A model generated the notes under the pieces. It worked only from the letters and a program-made list of their open reading frames with translations. It was not told the DNA's origin and ran no database searches. A stretch of DNA of 64,000 nt from Patescibacteria group bacterium. GTDB taxonomy: Bacteria > Patescibacteriota > Microgenomatia > UBA8517. The DNA is taken from positions 744,001 through 808,000 of the forward strand of contig DASZQR010000010.1 of assembly GCA_035549555.1 (NCBI GenBank). Direction: 5' to 3'. The position numbers and the translations under genes are program-made. Positions 43,938-56,047 of this stretch are shown here, piece by piece. Numbering within the stretch: position 1 is the stretch's first letter; each line of letters starts with the position of its first letter.

Positions 43938-44181
43938 AAAATATCAATTAACTGATAAAGATAAATTCATTTCCGCTGAATTCCAAAAATATGCATACGA
44001 TTTAGCAGTTGAATTAGGAGATTTAGAACATAAATCTCTTTATATGAAATTAGCAAAAACGACTCCAAGAATCTTGCTTGAAAATGCCCGCACTTTTGTC
44101 AAAGATGCAGATAACGCTAGAAGTAAAGCAAGACTTTTTATGTGGAAGTTAAAACAGTTAAAAGAAGAAAAGAAAAAGTAG
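43903..44181 (+). CDS. Hypothetical helical protein coupled to pth
   Basis: 92 aa, overlapping the end of pth by 35 bp in another frame. Lys-rich and helical (DTLKKYQLTDKDKFISAEFQKYAYDLAVELGDLEHK; C-terminus KARLFMWKLKQLKEEKKK). A basic C-terminal helix could bind RNA; this is inference. The gene stops exactly where the minus-strand gene ends. Confidence 0.65.
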   Translation: MTNFSNLSDTLKKYQLTDKDKFISAEFQKYAYDLAVELGDLEHKSLYMKLAKTTPRILLENARTFVKDADNARSKARLFMWKLKQLKEEKKK

Positions 44182-49494: not shown

Positions 49495-50394
49495 ATGGCT
49501 AAGGCAAAACAAAAAGAAACTGTTACTACAAAACAAAACAGTATTTTAGAAAACTTAAAAAAGTTTAATATAAAATCAATTTTAATTGTTGCAGTTATCT
49601 TAATGGCATTTGTAATCGGCCGCCTCACTCAAAAAGTTGAAGATCTTACAGGAGTTTCTGCAACAACAAATACTACAGCTACAACAACTGGAACAGGTAC
49701 AACTGGTACAACCACTCCAACAGTTTCGCTAGATACAATTAAAGGTTTATGGGATAAAAACATCATAAAATTGGGTAATGCAAACTCTAAATTATTATTC
49801 GTAGAAGTTGTTGATCCTAGCTGTCCATATTGCCATGCCGCCGGTGGATATGATCCCGAAGTTGGTCAACAAATGGGGACTCAATTTACTTATTCAGCTA
49901 ATGGAGGTAGTTACCAACCACCAGCAAGCGAAATGGAAAATTTAGTAAAACAAGGAAAAGCCTCAATGGCATTTGTTTATTATCCTGGCCATGGTGATGG
50001 AGAAGTTGGAATGACAGCTTTATATTGTGCAAACGAACAGAGTAAATTTTGGCAGGTTAATAACCTTCTTATGTCAAATGCTGGCTATAATCTAATGAAT
50101 AATACGAAAATTAAATTTAATCCAACACAAACTGATATAACTAATGGTTTTAGAGCTTATCAACCACAAGACGCTACAACAATGGCAAACTTCTTGAAAT
50201 CCGCTGTTGATACCAATTTCATGACTTCGTGCATTAATAGCAAGAAATATGTTTCTCAACTTACTGATGATACAAATTTAGCAACATCACTTGGAGTAAC
50301 AGGAACTCCAGGTTTTTTTGTTAATTCAACCTTGTATCCAGGTGCATATTCCTGGACAGACATGCAGTCTACAGTAAATTCAGCTCTCAAGTAA
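49495..50394 (+). CDS. Membrane-anchored DsbA-like thioredoxin-fold protein
   Basis: 299 aa. A cytoplasmic Lys-rich start, one membrane segment (about 28-43), a Thr/Gly-rich linker (residues 56-77) and an outer DsbA-type domain with active site DPSCPYCHAAG (Cys110, Cys113) and cis-Pro loop GTPGFFVNS. It probably forms or shuffles disulfides outside the membrane, such as in the Cys-bearing surface proteins of this window. The stop overlaps the convergent methyltransferase gene. Confidence 0.9.
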   Translation: MAKAKQKETVTTKQNSILENLKKFNIKSILIVAVILMAFVIGRLTQKVEDLTGVSATTNTTATTTGTGTTGTTTPTVSLDTIKGLWDKNIIKLGNANSKLLFVEVVDPSCPYCHAAGGYDPEVGQQMGTQFTYSANGGSYQPPASEMENLVKQGKASMAFVYYPGHGDGEVGMTALYCANEQSKFWQVNNLLMSNAGYNLMNNTKIKFNPTQTDITNGFRAYQPQDATTMANFLKSAVDTNFMTSCINSKKYVSQLTDDTNLATSLGVTGTPGFFVNSTLYPGAYSWTDMQSTVNSALK

Positions 50395-50916
50395 TTCAGT
50401 AATTTTGTAGGCCACCACTGCAGCAGCCCCCCAGACATTAAATGAATGATTTATTCCGTACATTGGCAACTCTACAATGATATCAGCTGTCTCCAAAACC
50501 TCTTTCTTAACTCCACCAGTTTCATTTCCCACCACAATCGCACAGGGGAATTTAACTTTAGAACTTAACTCTTTTATTGGTATTGATCTTTTATCTTGTT
50601 CTACAGCAATTATCTGTACACCCTCACTTTTTAATTTATTAATTACCTCCATTATGTCATCAATCTTGCTCCAAGGTACCCAATTTTCTGTTCCCACTGC
50701 CGCTTTATGGATTCTTGAAGATGGGGGATATTCGCTCTCGCCACAAATAAACAGTCTTTTTGCAGAAACCGCATCAGAAAGTCTAAAAAGAGATCCAATA
50801 TTATATGTATCAATCACATTATCGCTTACTATATAGATAGGATTATGTCTGATCGTTTTTAAATCCTCTTCAGAAGGTGTCTGATGACGAAGCACTCCAG
50901 GTTTTAATTTTTGCAT
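50380..50916 (-). CDS. TrmH/SpoU-family RNA 2'-O-methyltransferase
   Basis: 178 aa SPOUT fold. Motif 1 NIGSLFRLSDA, motif 2 CAIVVGNETGGVKKE, motif 3 ELPMYGINHSFNVWGAAAVV, which together form the trefoil-knot SAM site. It methylates tRNA or rRNA riboses; the target is unknown. On its strand TAAAAT ends 6 bp before the ATG. It overlaps the DsbA-like gene tail to tail by 15 bp. Confidence 0.9.
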   Translation of the reverse strand: MQKLKPGVLRHQTPSEEDLKTIRHNPIYIVSDNVIDTYNIGSLFRLSDAVSAKRLFICGESEYPPSSRIHKAAVGTENWVPWSKIDDIMEVINKLKSEGVQIIAVEQDKRSIPIKELSSKVKFPCAIVVGNETGGVKKEVLETADIIVELPMYGINHSFNVWGAAAVVAYKITELLES

Positions 50917-50945
50917 ATTGCTATTTTACCAAAAACAAGCCGCTT

Positions 50946-51182
50946 TTAATAATTCGGCGCCACGTAAGAAGAAGTAGTTGGAGAAATGTAGCCATTATTC
51001 ATATTATTTCTTGCTATAAAAAAATAATAAATTACAAAATAAACTACCGCACCAATAACTAAATAAATCACAATCCATTGCCAGAGAGGCCTTTTCCCAT
51101 AACCTTTCGTGTATGACTTAGAATAACTTTTCTTTGCTGAAGTTTTCTTTGTTGTTTTCTTGCTTTTCTTCTTTGTTGCCAT
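50946..51182 (-). CDS. Lys-rich single-span membrane protein
   Basis: 78 aa. The first 30 residues are Lys/Ser/Thr-rich (ATKKKSKKTTKKTSAKKSYS), then one membrane segment (WIVIYLVIGAVVYFVIYYFF), then a short Asn/Tyr/Ser outer tail. The basic tail could touch nucleic acid at the membrane; this is inference. Confidence 0.65.
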   Translation of the reverse strand: MATKKKSKKTTKKTSAKKSYSKSYTKGYGKRPLWQWIVIYLVIGAVVYFVIYYFFIARNNMNNGYISPTTSSYVAPNY

Positions 51183-51229
51183 AATTAAATATAAAAAGTT
51201 TCAAAAAGACTTGTCAAGATATAAAATCA

Positions 51230-51697
51230 TCATTCTAACATAGTCCCTTTAGGAACTAATTGTGGGATGCTAAAATCTTTTTCTCTAATTTGGTCTGCCA
51301 ATCTGTGGAAAGTTGCCTTTATGTCTATTTCTTTTGGTAATTCTTCCACAGTCATAAAACCTGCTGCTTTCATTCTTGCATCATGGTCGTCAATTCTATC
51401 TCTACTTGGATAACTAGCCCTTACTAATTTCCCATCCCCAGTTGCTTGATACATAAGTTGCTGTTCACCATACATACTTTTATCAGGAATTGTAAAAATT
51501 GATATATTTTGTTGTTCTGGTGTATTTATGCAATTCAGCATTTCAAACCATCTTCCTCCCAATTTAACACTAAATTCAATAACATCAACCTTATAGGAAC
51601 CAGAATGTCTTTCAAAAACAAATTTCCTGTCTTTTGAATCATTCAAATATTCTACTTTTCTCACACCTGGAGCTTCTACTAAAAAATCTTCCGCCAT
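51230..51697 (-). CDS. Hypothetical protein, paralogue of the gene at 61865
   Basis: 155 aa, soluble. It aligns along its length with the 155-aa product at 61865-62332: VEYLNDSKDRKFVF, RWFEMLNCI, a Tyr-x-x strand, RIDDHDARMKAAGF and ELPKEIDIKATFHRLADQIREKDFSIPQL all have counterparts. No known family was recognised. It is a single-gene unit between a membrane-protein gene and the export operon. Confidence 0.7.
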   Translation of the reverse strand: MAEDFLVEAPGVRKVEYLNDSKDRKFVFERHSGSYKVDVIEFSVKLGGRWFEMLNCINTPEQQNISIFTIPDKSMYGEQQLMYQATGDGKLVRASYPSRDRIDDHDARMKAAGFMTVEELPKEIDIKATFHRLADQIREKDFSIPQLVPKGTMLE

Positions 51698-51735
51698 AAT
51701 TAACTAAATTCTAACATATTATTTACAAATACAAC

Positions 51736-52926
51736 CTACTCATATCTAAGTGCTTGAATTGGATCAAGCTTTGAAGCTCTTATTGCTGGTGCTACTCCAA
51801 AAACAACTCCTACAATCATTGAAAATCCAAAAGATAAAATTACAGACCAAAGGGGAACAGATGTTGTTATAAAATGATTTATTATTTGCGAAAATAAAAA
51901 CCCAAGACCAATTCCCACAATTCCACCAATGCTTGACAAAATTACAGCTTCAACTAAAAATTGATTTCTTATATCATCTGGCTTTGCTCCAAGCGCTTTA
52001 CGAAGTCCTATTTCTCGAGTGCGTTCTGTAACGCTAACTAACATAATATTCATTACTCCAATTCCTCCAACAAGAAGTGATATCGCCGCAATTCCTCCAA
52101 GTGCAATTGTAAGTACGCCTGTTATTTGTGCAACAGTTGAAAGCGTTTCGCTTTGTGTCATGACGCTAAAATCATCTTCTTTAAGCCGCCGAAGTAGTAT
52201 TTCTTTCACTTTATCTTGTATTTGGTTAACATTATCAGTCGAGTTTGCAGAAACATAAATTGCATTAGGGTTTGTTATCCCAAATTGTTTTTGTGCAGCA
52301 GTTAAGGGAATAAAAATTGCATTATCCATATCAATTCCAAATGTACTTCCTCGTGCTCCCATTACTCCGATTACTGTGTATTTTATTCCTCCAACATCAA
52401 TTTGTTTGTTAATTGGATCAGAGTTAAAAAGTTTTGTAACTACAGTTTTTCCTATTACTGCAACATGTCTTGAACCATCTTCCTGTGATTGGCTGAAAAA
52501 ATTTCCTTCATCAAATTTTATTGCCGTAATTAGTTTTGTATAATTTGCATCAACCCCGCCAATTGTTACTCCTTTATCAATTTTATTTCCATTTTTAAGC
52601 GTTCCAACGCTTTGTATTGAAGCTGAAACTTCAGCTTGCCCTTGAAGTTTGGTTTTTAGGTTACTTGCATCAGTTAGTAATAATTTATTTGCTTGCACTC
52701 CTCCAGGGCCTCTTCCTCCGCCAATAGTTCCAGGAATTACAAACATTAAATTAGATCCTAATCCCTGAATTTGCTGAGTTATATAAATCTGAAGTCCGGA
52801 AACGACAGATACAAGTAAAATTACAGACATGACTCCAATAACAATTCCAAGAATTGTCAAAAAACTTCTAAGTCTATTTGCAAGTATTGCAGTCAGTGAA
52901 CTTGATAATGTTTCGTTAATGTCCAT
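51736..52926 (-). CDS. MacB-like ABC transporter permease
   Basis: 396 aa. N-terminal membrane segment after [23 protein letters not shown], a large outer MacB-PCD domain (about 50-265), and three C-terminal segments of the FtsX domain with [22 protein letters not shown]. It is the last gene of the operon and overlaps the ATPase gene by 11 bp. With the ATPase and adaptor it forms a mechanotransmission-type exporter of unknown substrate. Confidence 0.94.
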
Positions 52927-53596
52927 ACAAATGCCCGTCTTTTATTGTCACGCGTCTTTTTGCTTCTTTTGCTATTTCGTCGGAGTGGGTGATAAGTATT
53001 ATTGTTCGCCCTTCCTTATTTAAATCTTTAAATATTTGCATCACTTCTTCTCCTGTTTTGCTGTCAAGGTTTCCAGTTGGTTCATCAGCTAAAATTATCT
53101 CCGGGTTTGTTACCAGTGCTCGTGCGATTGCAACTCTTTGTTGTTGCCCTCCAGATAATTGATTTGGTTTTGAATTTAATTTTTCCCCAAGCCCAACAGA
53201 TTGCAAAGCTTTTGCTGCTAAGCTTTTTCTCTCGCTAGCATTAACTCCGCTATAAATAAGTGGAAGTATTACATTATCAAGAGCGCTTGTTCTTTTTAAT
53301 AAATTAAAAGATTGAAATACAAATCCAATTTTTTTATTGCGTATATTTGCAAGTGTAGTTTCTTTAAGTTTAGAAACATCTTGTCCATCTAAAAAATATT
53401 TCCCGTTTGTTGGATGGTCCAGTAGTCCCAAAATATTCATTAGTGTAGATTTGCCGCTTCCAGAAGGACCAACGATTGCTACAAATTCTCCTTTTTTAAT
53501 ATCTAAGTCAATATCATAAAGAGCTTGAAAAGTTACTCCTTCGGCTTCAAAAATTTTATTTACCTTTTGTAAATCAACAGAAAGTTTGGACATCAT
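52916..53596 (-). CDS. MacB/LolD-like ABC transporter ATPase
   Basis: 226 aa. Walker [14 protein letters not shown]-loop region FVFQSFNLL, signature [15 protein letters not shown], Walker [13 protein letters not shown] and H-loop ILITHS. Drives the permease encoded next. The start overlaps the adaptor stop by 4 bp (ATGA). Confidence 0.96.
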
Positions 53597-54654
53597 TTGA
53601 CATCTTGTGGGTTAGTAACTATCTTGTCTCCAGCGTTAAGTCCCGACAATACTTCCACATCAGTATCAGATTTTATACCAGTTGTTATTGTTCGCTTTTC
53701 GACTTTTCCGTTTGCGTCTTTTATATACACATGTGTGTCATCAATTAATGCATCTTGTGGAATAGTTAGTGTATTTTGTTTTTGCGCAGTAATTATATTT
53801 GCATTTCCATTAAGTCCATAAATTTGGGAAATTCTTGGATCGCTGACTTCTATTTTGACAGTTACTGTAACTGCTCCAGTTGTATCAGTTTGAGTTGTTG
53901 GTTCTATTTCAACTACTTTTCCGTCAAAAGTTGTGTCTCCGTAAGCGTTTAGTGTTATTTGTGCGCTCTGTCCAACCTGCACACTTGCAATATCACTTTC
54001 GTCAACTGTTGCATCAAAGTCTTTAGAACTAAAATCAACGACTTGAGCTATCACATCAGTAGGAGTTACATTTTGTCCTGTCGCTAAATTTCCTTGAGTT
54101 ACAACAATTCCTGAAATCGGCGAAGTAAGATTTGTTTGGCTTAATGCATCTTGTGCTGCAAGCAAGGTGTTCCATGCATTATCGTTTGCAACTTCAGCCG
54201 CAGTTCTTGCAGCTTTTTGTGCAAATGTTTCATTACTTCCGTTATTTTTATCTGCATCATGTTCTGCATCAACTGCTGCCTGTGTTTCTCTTCTATTATT
54301 TAATGCATCCTGATAAGTAGCATTTGCTTGTGTCGAATCAAGTGATGCAATTGTCTGTCCCTTTATGACAGTATCCCCATTATTTACTGCTAAATAATTT
54401 AATTTTCCAGCTTGATTAAAATGAAGTGTTGCAACTGTTTTTCCGCTAAGCACGCCTGATGCACTCACACTGCTTGCAATATTATTTGTTTCGGCTGTTG
54501 TATAAGTTAATTGTGCTGGTTTTTTGCCACCGCGCAAAATTAAAAACAGGAAAAACAAAATCACAACAATTCCAATTATTTTTGTTCTTCGTCCGCTGTT
54601 TTTAATTTTCTGCCAAATATTTTTAAGAATTTGCATCTGTGGATATTTTATCAC
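53593..54654 (-). CDS. MacA/HlyD-type membrane-fusion adaptor
   Basis: 353 aa from GTG 54654 overlapping the marR stop (GTGA). One N-terminal membrane segment (about 24-41), a biotinyl-lipoyl-like half ([18 protein letters not shown]...[21 protein letters not shown]), a coiled-coil hairpin between them and beta-barrel and C-terminal domains. In a monoderm-like cell it would extend outward from the MacB-like exporter rather than join an outer-membrane channel. Confidence 0.92.
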
Positions 54655-55106
54655 GAATGTGTCGTAATCACCTTTTTAAGTAAATTTATAAACTGCTCTA
54701 ATTCTTCATCGCTAAAATCATTAAATCCGCTGGAAATATTTTTTAAATAATTTGTTTTTATTTCCCTAATTCTGTTTTTTGCAAAGCGCGACAAACTTAT
54801 ATTAAAAACTCTCCTGTCTTTTTTATCTTCCATTCTTTCAACCATTTTTTTCTCGACCAATTTATCAACAAGTTGAGTAACAGCTCCAGGAGTGACATTA
54901 AGTTTCATTGCAAGTTCTTTAACAGGGACACCGTCTTGGTTCTTTTCAAGTGCAAATAAAAGTCTTGCTCTCTGATGTCCAAAATGAAATTCTTTTTTAA
55001 AATTTTTTGCTTTGTGTTCATTGTGCATTTGGCGAAGTGGACCAACAAAAACGTCAGCCAATTGTTGAGAAGCTTCCTGTAGTAATTTCTCTCTTTTCTT
55101 ACTCAT
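54651..55106 (-). CDS. MarR-family transcriptional regulator
   Basis: 151 aa winged-helix protein: VKELAMKLNVTPGAVTQLVDKLVEKKMVERMEDKKDRRVFNISL contains the recognition helix and the DxRxxxxxLT-type wing. It is the first gene of the exporter operon, so it probably represses the operon and itself and is relieved by a ligand the pump removes. Confidence 0.92.
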   Translation of the reverse strand: MSKKREKLLQEASQQLADVFVGPLRQMHNEHKAKNFKKEFHFGHQRARLLFALEKNQDGVPVKELAMKLNVTPGAVTQLVDKLVEKKMVERMEDKKDRRVFNISLSRFAKNRIREIKTNYLKNISSGFNDFSDEELEQFINLLKKVITTHS

Positions 55107-55220
55107 TTTGTTTAGATATTAAATATTTTAGTACCTAAAGCGATTTTGTCAAGTATTTGCAAATAGGGTATACAATATAATTACATTATCAGAAGTTTAC
55201 CTTATATTTTTAAATTTGTG

Positions 55221-55243
55221 AGGCCCTGCCAAGGGCCTTTTTT
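55221..55243 (+). terminator. Intrinsic terminator or attenuator ahead of the Cys-rich gene
   Basis: AGGCCCT (55221-55227), loop GCCA, AGGGCCT (55232-55238), then a T-run (55238-55243): a 7 bp GC-rich stem with U-tract, the best terminator in the window. It lies about 50-60 nt downstream of a possible -10 (TATACA/TACAAT near 55171-55176) and 20 nt upstream of the next start codon, so it would stop transcription before that gene unless read through. Confidence 0.75.
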
Positions 55244-55263
55244 GTTAAAAGGGGGTGAAAATT

Positions 55264-55476
55264 GTGAAAGAAAAATTTCCTTGTTTACATTGTCCTTTTG
55301 CGAACGAAATTGGTTTAACTAATCGTGCAAGCGGACGCGATCTTGTTACCAAAGCAGTCATGGCTGGAGATCCTACGACTCTTAATAAGCTTGTAGGTGC
55401 GGCATGCCATTGCACAGTTAAATGGGAAGAAAGAGTCAAGCCGCAGTGTGTCGGTTTACATCCTAAAGTAGCTTAA
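55264..55476 (+). CDS. Small Cys-rich protein A (CxxCPFA)
   Basis: 70 aa from GTG 55264, chosen because AAGGGGG (55249-55255) then has normal spacing. Cys pattern: PCLHCPFA, AACHC and PQCVG, likely zinc-binding. Less AT-rich than its neighbours. It shares the CxxCPFA start and the later Cys spacing with the next gene. Function unknown; the terminator in its leader implies regulation by attenuation. Confidence 0.6.
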   Translation: MKEKFPCLHCPFANEIGLTNRASGRDLVTKAVMAGDPTTLNKLVGAACHCTVKWEERVKPQCVGLHPKVA

Positions 55477-55481
55477 AACTT

Positions 55482-55700
55482 ATGGGCAAAGAGAGAAATT
55501 CTGGTCTTTGCGGTAAGTGTCCCTTTGCGCTGCAAATGGAAGCTACCATCTTGCATAAACACCGTAATGATCTATTGGTAATTATAAAAAACACAGTTCA
55601 TCCAGATTATCTTTTGGATCAAGTTATTCGTCAGTGCCAAGCAAATGGCGGCTCACTTGCCAGAGAAGGAAAAAAATTTCCTAATTGCACCTTTAGATGA
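55482..55700 (+). CDS. Small Cys-rich protein B (CxxCPFA)
   Basis: 72 aa, 5 bp after protein A. LCGKCPFALQMEATI, then a helix with LLVIIKNTVHPDYLLDQVIRQC, then FPNCTF: four Cys in a C-x2-C...C...C layout. It appears to be a diverged duplicate of protein A. Function unknown; a zinc-binding fold is likely. It is followed by tRNA-Glu after 30 bp. Confidence 0.6.
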   Translation: MGKERNSGLCGKCPFALQMEATILHKHRNDLLVIIKNTVHPDYLLDQVIRQCQANGGSLAREGKKFPNCTFR

Positions 55701-55730
55701 TAAAATAGGCGTGGCTTTGCCGTATAATAC

Positions 55731-55803
55731 GGCCCCATCGTCTAGAGGCCTAGGACACAAGACTTTCATTCTTGTAACCTGGATTCGAATTCCAGTGGGG
55801 TCA
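55731..55803 (+). tRNA. tRNA-Glu (anticodon UUC)
   Basis: Acceptor GGCCCCA/TGGGGTC (one G-T pair); anticodon stem CAAGA/TCTTG with loop CTTTCAT, anticodon TTC at 55765-55767; T stem CTGGA/TCCAG with loop TTCGAAT; discriminator A; CCA not encoded. A palindromic CCGTATAATACGG directly abuts the 5' end; its TATAAT is too close to be this tRNA's -10. Confidence 0.92.
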
Positions 55804-55868
55804 CAAAATAAATATAGGAGAGTATAATATGTTTCTTGGGTTCGTAAGCAAAGCTTGCGGTACCCTTC

Positions 55869-55940
55869 GGGTTCGTAGCTCAGTGGTAGAGCAACTCCCT
55901 TTTAAGGAGATGGTCGAGGGTCCGATCCCCTCCGAACCCA
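55869..55940 (+). tRNA. tRNA-Lys (anticodon UUU)
   Basis: Acceptor GGGTTCG/CGAACCC; D stem GCTC/GAGC; anticodon loop CTTTTAA, anticodon TTT at 55901-55903; T arm with loop TCCGATC; discriminator A; CCA not encoded. TATAAT at 55823-55828 is a likely -10. About 30 bp upstream the sequence GGGTTCGTA occurs a second time, a partial copy of the tRNA 5' end. Confidence 0.9.
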
Positions 55941-55973
55941 CCGAAGGTGGGTGTTATTCCTCCCACTCATCAT

Positions 55974-56047
55974 TGCGGGATCGTCTAATGGTAGGACAGC
56001 AGACTTTGGATCTGTTAATTGGGGTTCAATTCCCTGTCCCGCAGCCA
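55974..56047 (+). tRNA. tRNA-Gln (anticodon UUG)
   Basis: Acceptor TGCGGGA/TCCCGCA; anticodon stem GCAGA/TCTGT with loop CTTTGGA, anticodon TTG at 56006-56008; T arm GGGGTTCAATTCCC; discriminator G; CCA encoded at 56045-56047. The following protein gene begins one base later. Confidence 0.92.

Follow-up and report, generated by a model that had tools for sequence, protein, structure and literature searches.

The closest described systems to the locus analyzed here are two bacterial leaders in which transcription can end before the gene is reached. The E. coli greA leader yields transcripts of 37-59 nt with about one third readthrough, and an excess of Nus factors has no effect on this GraL readthrough, according to the sections of PMC6829880 drawn on here. 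The NusA protein of B. subtilis controls its own expression by stimulating termination in the 5' leader of its gene, as stated in the part of PMC12288461 that cites Mondal 2016. For the Patescibacteria or Candidate Phyla Radiation, our literature search retrieved no paper on intrinsic terminators, transcription termination or nusA attenuation. The DNA considered here, referred to as the window, is a stretch of 64,000 nucleotides (G000, contig C10, positions 744001-808000) from a Patescibacteria genome of 1.01 Mb; the contig has 810,692 bp and a G+C content of 34%. Its setting is of interest as few intrinsic terminators were found in this genome and several of them lie between a promoter and a gene, and a pair of small cysteine-containing ORFs, P1 and P2, would be governed by a switch of the same kind.

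The leader of P1 and P2

The elements of the locus, in window coordinates, are the following.

54651-55106, minus strand: MarR-family regulator, divergent, first gene of an HlyD/ABC/MacB-type export operon
55146-55174, plus strand: promoter candidate A, TTGTCA - 17 nt - TATACA, 9/12, the -10 lacking its final T
55154-55165, no strand: palindrome TATTTGCAAATA between the divergent marR and P1 promoters
55180-55208, plus strand: promoter candidate B, ATTACA - 17 nt - TATATT, 9/12, ending 11 nt before the hairpin
55220-55243, plus strand: intrinsic terminator, hairpin 55220-55239 followed by T6, 8-bp stem, 4-nt loop
55250-55258, plus strand: Shine-Dalgarno-like AGGGGGTGA region of P1 (putative role)
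55264-55476, plus strand: P1, 70 aa, GTG start, cysteines 7, 10, 48, 50 and 62, motif CLHCPFANEIG
55482-55700, plus strand: P2, 72 aa, cysteines 10, 13, 52 and 69, motif CGKCPFALQM
55698-55706, plus strand: extended -10 TGATAAAAT (TGn + TAAAAT, poor -35), overlapping the P2 stop
55731-56047, plus strand: tRNA-Glu(UUC), tRNA-Lys(UUU) and tRNA-Gln(UUG), neighbours of P1 and P2

The sequence-only reading of this DNA had placed a strong terminator between a promoter-like sequence and two small CxxCPFA ORFs, and this anatomy was confirmed, both ORFs being present as it had described them. The hairpin, GAGGCCCT-GCCA-AGGGCCTT, has 8 pairs, 5 of them G-C, and a folding energy of -14.2 kcal/mol by itself. 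It is the strongest of seven terminator-like sites between positions 44000 and 63999, a region whose shuffled sequence contains 13.0 +/- 4.2 weak terminator-like sites, and a search allowing up to 3 mismatches shows no second copy of it in the window. P1 begins about 25 nt after the end of the hairpin, with the Shine-Dalgarno-like sequence GGGGGTGA about 6 nt after the U-tract. As no plus-strand ORF of at least 90 codons is found from 50394 to 55220, that is, for about 5 kb before the hairpin, the element is best read as a leader terminator rather than as the 3' end of a gene. The locus has the layout expected of an attenuator, an intrinsic terminator on the coding strand between a promoter-like sequence and the first gene. 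The genes immediately upstream all lie on the minus strand, as would suit an insulator that keeps antisense or stray transcription out of the P1, P2 and tRNA region, but this function is quite improbable: the promoter-like sequences ahead of the terminator would be wasted, and the hairpin has no U-tract behind it when read on the minus strand.

Two promoter candidates precede the terminator. Candidate A, next to which an additional TATAAT is found at 55176-55181, would initiate near 55181, leaving about 39 nt up to the hairpin, against only about 5 nt for a start from candidate B. Candidate B itself ends 11 nt from the hairpin, a geometry that returns in two other leaders of this genome, those of nusA (10 nt) and of the VanW-like gene (11 nt). 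No promoter-like match of at least 8/12 begins after the hairpin and before P1, and the earlier claim stands at the point where it had declared itself vulnerable, a separate promoter between the terminator and position 55264. With a terminator in the leader and no promoter-like match after it, transcription from the upstream promoters must read through to P1.

Conditional readthrough, perhaps sensed by the leader RNA, had been proposed on this basis. The first half of the proposal is supported by the leader position of the terminator and by the recurrence of the arrangement at other genes, above all nusA, and the second half is not supported. The predicted fold of 55182-55290 has a z-score of -2.3 and pairs the Shine-Dalgarno region with the 5' leader, as might be expected of a ligand- or metal-sensing attenuator of the riboswitch type. 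However, the leader of about 5-39 nt before the hairpin is too short for the aptamer and alternative anti-terminator of a riboswitch or T-box, no credible competing anti-terminator was seen in it, an Rfam search gave no match, and the outer helix around the terminator is not significant, 14.7% of shuffles being as good. For these reasons a ligand-sensing leader RNA is unlikely, and a riboswitch-type attenuator would be an extremely doubtful description of the locus. The outer helix was also considered as an architecture common to the terminators at P1, 184906 and 651660, and rejected (14.7%, 3.3% and 32% of shuffles as good, respectively).

On the upstream side, the palindrome TATTTGCAAATA occurs exactly once in the window, at 55154-55165, and at 2 mismatches its copies are near chance (23 vs 16.6 +/- 3.65 expected). 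A copy with 1 mismatch lies at 51720-51731, where 23 nt separate it from the downstream start of ORF 51230-51697 on the minus strand, and these two sites are possible candidates for MarR operators. MarR itself was rejected as a conserved partner of the pair, marR being matched in the own genome only (1/47 family genomes). On the downstream side, the tRNA-Glu/-Lys/-Gln cluster is probably a unit separate from P1 and P2. The three tRNA genes are clustered in many relatives' loci, where P1 and P2 are missing, and the position beside them was dismissed as a conserved site of the pair, with no such genes in the loci of 20 relatives. The extended -10 at 55698-55706 is probably the tRNA genes' own promoter, so that readthrough from the P1/P2 leader would not be needed for their expression. 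An inverted repeat, CCGTATAATACGG, at 55720-55732 of the window, stands directly before the start of tRNA-Glu and extends into it.

P1 and P2 as an orphan pair

P1 and P2 are probably genes. Their common C..CPFA is found in 2 of the 3043 stop-to-stop frames of at least 60 codons on contig C10, and these two frames, of 70 and 72 codons, are adjacent, with 5 nt from the P1 stop to the P2 start. The codon score of P1 is moderate and near gene-like, and a Shine-Dalgarno-like site stands at tight spacing before it. All of this argues against chance frames, a reading that we regard as very improbable, even though no homologues were found and P2 scores poorly, within the range of spurious frames, with an atypical codon usage (8th percentile). 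The deviating composition that had been noted for the pair dissolved on comparison with the genome: the first two codon positions of P1 stand at the 96th percentile for G+C and the third at the 77th, those of P2 at the 74th and 91st, all of these percentiles, like the codon usage of the pair, being inside the genome's range, and the local rise in G+C comes partly from the tRNA genes. The suggestion of an acquired cassette loses its footing as well, since composition is not outlying and no donor was found; only the absence of the pair elsewhere speaks for acquisition.

Homologues were sought with protein, two-row HMM and DNA-pattern searches in genome sets that overlap and include the own genome. 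None was convincing among 56 relatives, 50 family genomes, 373 class genomes or 379 phylum genomes, nor in a peptide-pattern search of the GTDB r220 contigs or in searches of IMG/VR, phages and plasmids. Among the Pfam, PHROGs and NCBIfam models none matched above its cut-off, one weak NCBIfam match falling far below. The CxxCPFA DNA pattern occurs at 49 places in 46 of the 373 class genomes, two of these places being P1 and P2 themselves; all 47 others were read and set aside, mostly as short, antisense or unrelated frames. Among the candidates rejected individually, L058, L059, L036, L002 and L004 are frames that arise by read-through or are unrelated, and L176 (E 3.5e-4) contains an internal stop and lies opposite a long ORF, in antisense. 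Rejected by eye were L094, which forms the C-terminal part of a 179-aa frame, and L070 and L072, small Cys-rich proteins with another pattern. The last two, of 97 and 105 codons (G242 and G113, two genomes of one genus), look alike by eye and share CxGCPFAGxCxPC followed by later Cys pairs.

The nearest match, L177, is a 99-aa frame with CERCPFAQEMG in a genome of another family of the phylum (G617); it is identical to P1 at 7 of 11 residues over the motif, has no similarity outside it, and within its own family occurs in a single genome out of 245. In IMG/VR a stricter CxxCPFA pattern hit 9 contigs, and 7 of the matches fall within large proteins encoded by about 917-981 codons. These phage proteins, some 950 aa long (L180-L183, L185-L187), carry the motif as P1 and P2 do, without likeness outside it. 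By these matches, CxxCPFA is a motif shared by proteins that are otherwise unrelated. The search for a small-protein family with this Cys pattern, which the sequence-only reading had recommended, came back empty within its reach, an outcome that this reading had itself named as refuting its view, and for want of homologues no family can be claimed; in the collections searched, P1 and P2 are, on sequence comparison, orphans and a lineage-specific pair.

That the two are diverged duplicates, as had also been suggested, is plausible from the common motif, and an alignment brings four cysteine columns into register. Their global similarity exceeds that of shuffles when taken whole (p 0.018) but not without the motif (p 0.226), local similarity after the motif is at shuffle level (p 0.93), and BLASTP of P1 against P2 returned no alignment. 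Since similarity outside the motif is no better than in shuffles and BLASTP aligns nothing, duplication is a guess, if a reasonable one. Small zinc-knuckle and zinc-ribbon proteins have a C-x2-C pair followed by later cysteines, a pattern seen in P1 and P2 too, the difference being that neither matches a Pfam, NCBIfam or PHROGs model above cut-off. Each probably binds a metal ion, putatively zinc, through C-x2-C and two later cysteines, and our guess would be small metal-stabilised binding or regulatory proteins. AlphaFold2 gave pLDDT values of 53.5 and 48.4 and no usable model, the four Cys columns being aligned in sequence only.

Leader terminators on contig C10 and at nusA

Strong terminators are rare in this genome: strict criteria return 18 in the 810,692 bp of the contig, 14 of them outside genes, and stems of at least 6 return 27, of which 18 are intergenic. 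With P1 added by hand to the gene list, a gene on the same strand starts within 60 nt downstream of 7 of these 18 (6/17 without P1) and ends within 60 nt upstream of 6; a further 3 have an opposite-strand start at most 60 nt away. A promoter of at least 9/12 ending 4-16 nt before the hairpin was found for 4 of the 18 (VanW-like, nusA, M23 peptidase and P1). At control positions, unmatched in base composition, the frequency was 2.9%, which gives a binomial P of 0.0016 in a test devised after the pattern had been seen. Beside P1, the following leader terminators, given in contig coordinates, were recognized.

172795-172813, minus strand: typA/BipA, TATAAT 8 nt before the hairpin, poor -35
272668-272687, minus strand: VanW-like gene, promoter of at least 9/12, 11 nt before the hairpin
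573141-573159, minus strand: ribosomal protein L3 downstream of S10, longer leader
608519-609643, minus strand: nusA leader terminator locus, outside the window
651660-651679, plus strand: M23 peptidase, promoter of at least 9/12

At 233113-233133 on the minus strand of the same contig, a promoter, a short hairpin and a terminator stand before tRNA-Leu with no gene between, an arrangement that looks like a free small RNA.

The leader of P1 and P2 could by analogy specify an independent small RNA, about 30-60 nt long, the two genes being expressed via leakage or an unrecognised promoter only. The strong hairpin close to a promoter and the resemblance to 233113 (minus strand) would fit this proposal. 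We nevertheless consider it unlikely, as a good Shine-Dalgarno-like sequence of P1 follows the U-tract by about 6 nt and Rfam has no match; moreover, a GraL-like leader could serve as both a small RNA and an attenuator.

The arrangement at nusA is conserved. A GGTGGG...CCC(A/G)C(C/T) hairpin with a T-tract precedes nusA in all 30 family loci (L146-L175), taken from 42 genomes with a match, and in most of them TTGACT-17-TA(A/G)A(C/A)T lies ahead of the hairpin. Beyond the family, 40 nusA loci (L189-L228), belonging to 26 further families of the class, were hand-chosen out of 266 genomes with a nusA match; a sense terminator at most 300 nt upstream of nusA was present in 27 of the 40, compared with 1/40 in the antisense control. 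This conservation suggests that nusA may be controlled by leader termination across the class, and control of the B. subtilis type would then extend to a group of bacteria with small genomes. The conserved nusA leader is a stronger result than the P1/P2 pair itself.

Proposed control and its counterparts

On balance, and by a modest preference, we favour for P1 and P2 a lineage-specific operon under promoter-proximal attenuation, with readthrough set by the termination machinery. Polymerase would initiate from either or both of the promoter candidates (55146-55208), most transcripts would be released near 55243 with a length of about 30-60 nt, and a fraction of polymerases would pass the terminator and produce a P1-P2 mRNA. 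The level of readthrough would be set by NusA, NusG and NTP supply and not by a ligand-binding leader RNA, with MarR as a possible further regulator acting on the promoter. The attenuation reading draws on the anatomy of the leader, on the recurrence of this anatomy in the genome and on its conservation at nusA, the P1 leader itself having no homologue for comparison. We infer the termination, the readthrough and its control, as well as the metal binding proposed above. A bolder extension, in which the nusA, typA, M23, VanW-like and P1/P2 leaders would all report termination capacity and P1 and P2 would be metal-dependent factors modifying termination, their own leader included, seems to us most improbable.

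Compared with the described systems, attenuation at P1 and P2 would resemble that at greA in having an intrinsic terminator shortly after overlapping promoters, the short RNAs and partial readthrough being observed for GraL, in the material cited above, and predicted for P1 and P2. The genes behind the terminator differ: greA encodes a conserved RNA polymerase factor, whereas P1 and P2 are orphans whose leader is described from its DNA. As Nus factors have no effect on GraL in the cited sections, the factor in control at P1 and P2 may be one other than NusA. B. subtilis nusA differs in that P1 and P2 are not known to encode a termination factor, and autoregulation of the NusA type would therefore not apply to them directly. 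The likeness, as far as the cited part of the B. subtilis work describes it, is that a terminator in the 5' leader governs entry into the gene, and the genome that carries P1 and P2 has such a terminator at its own nusA.
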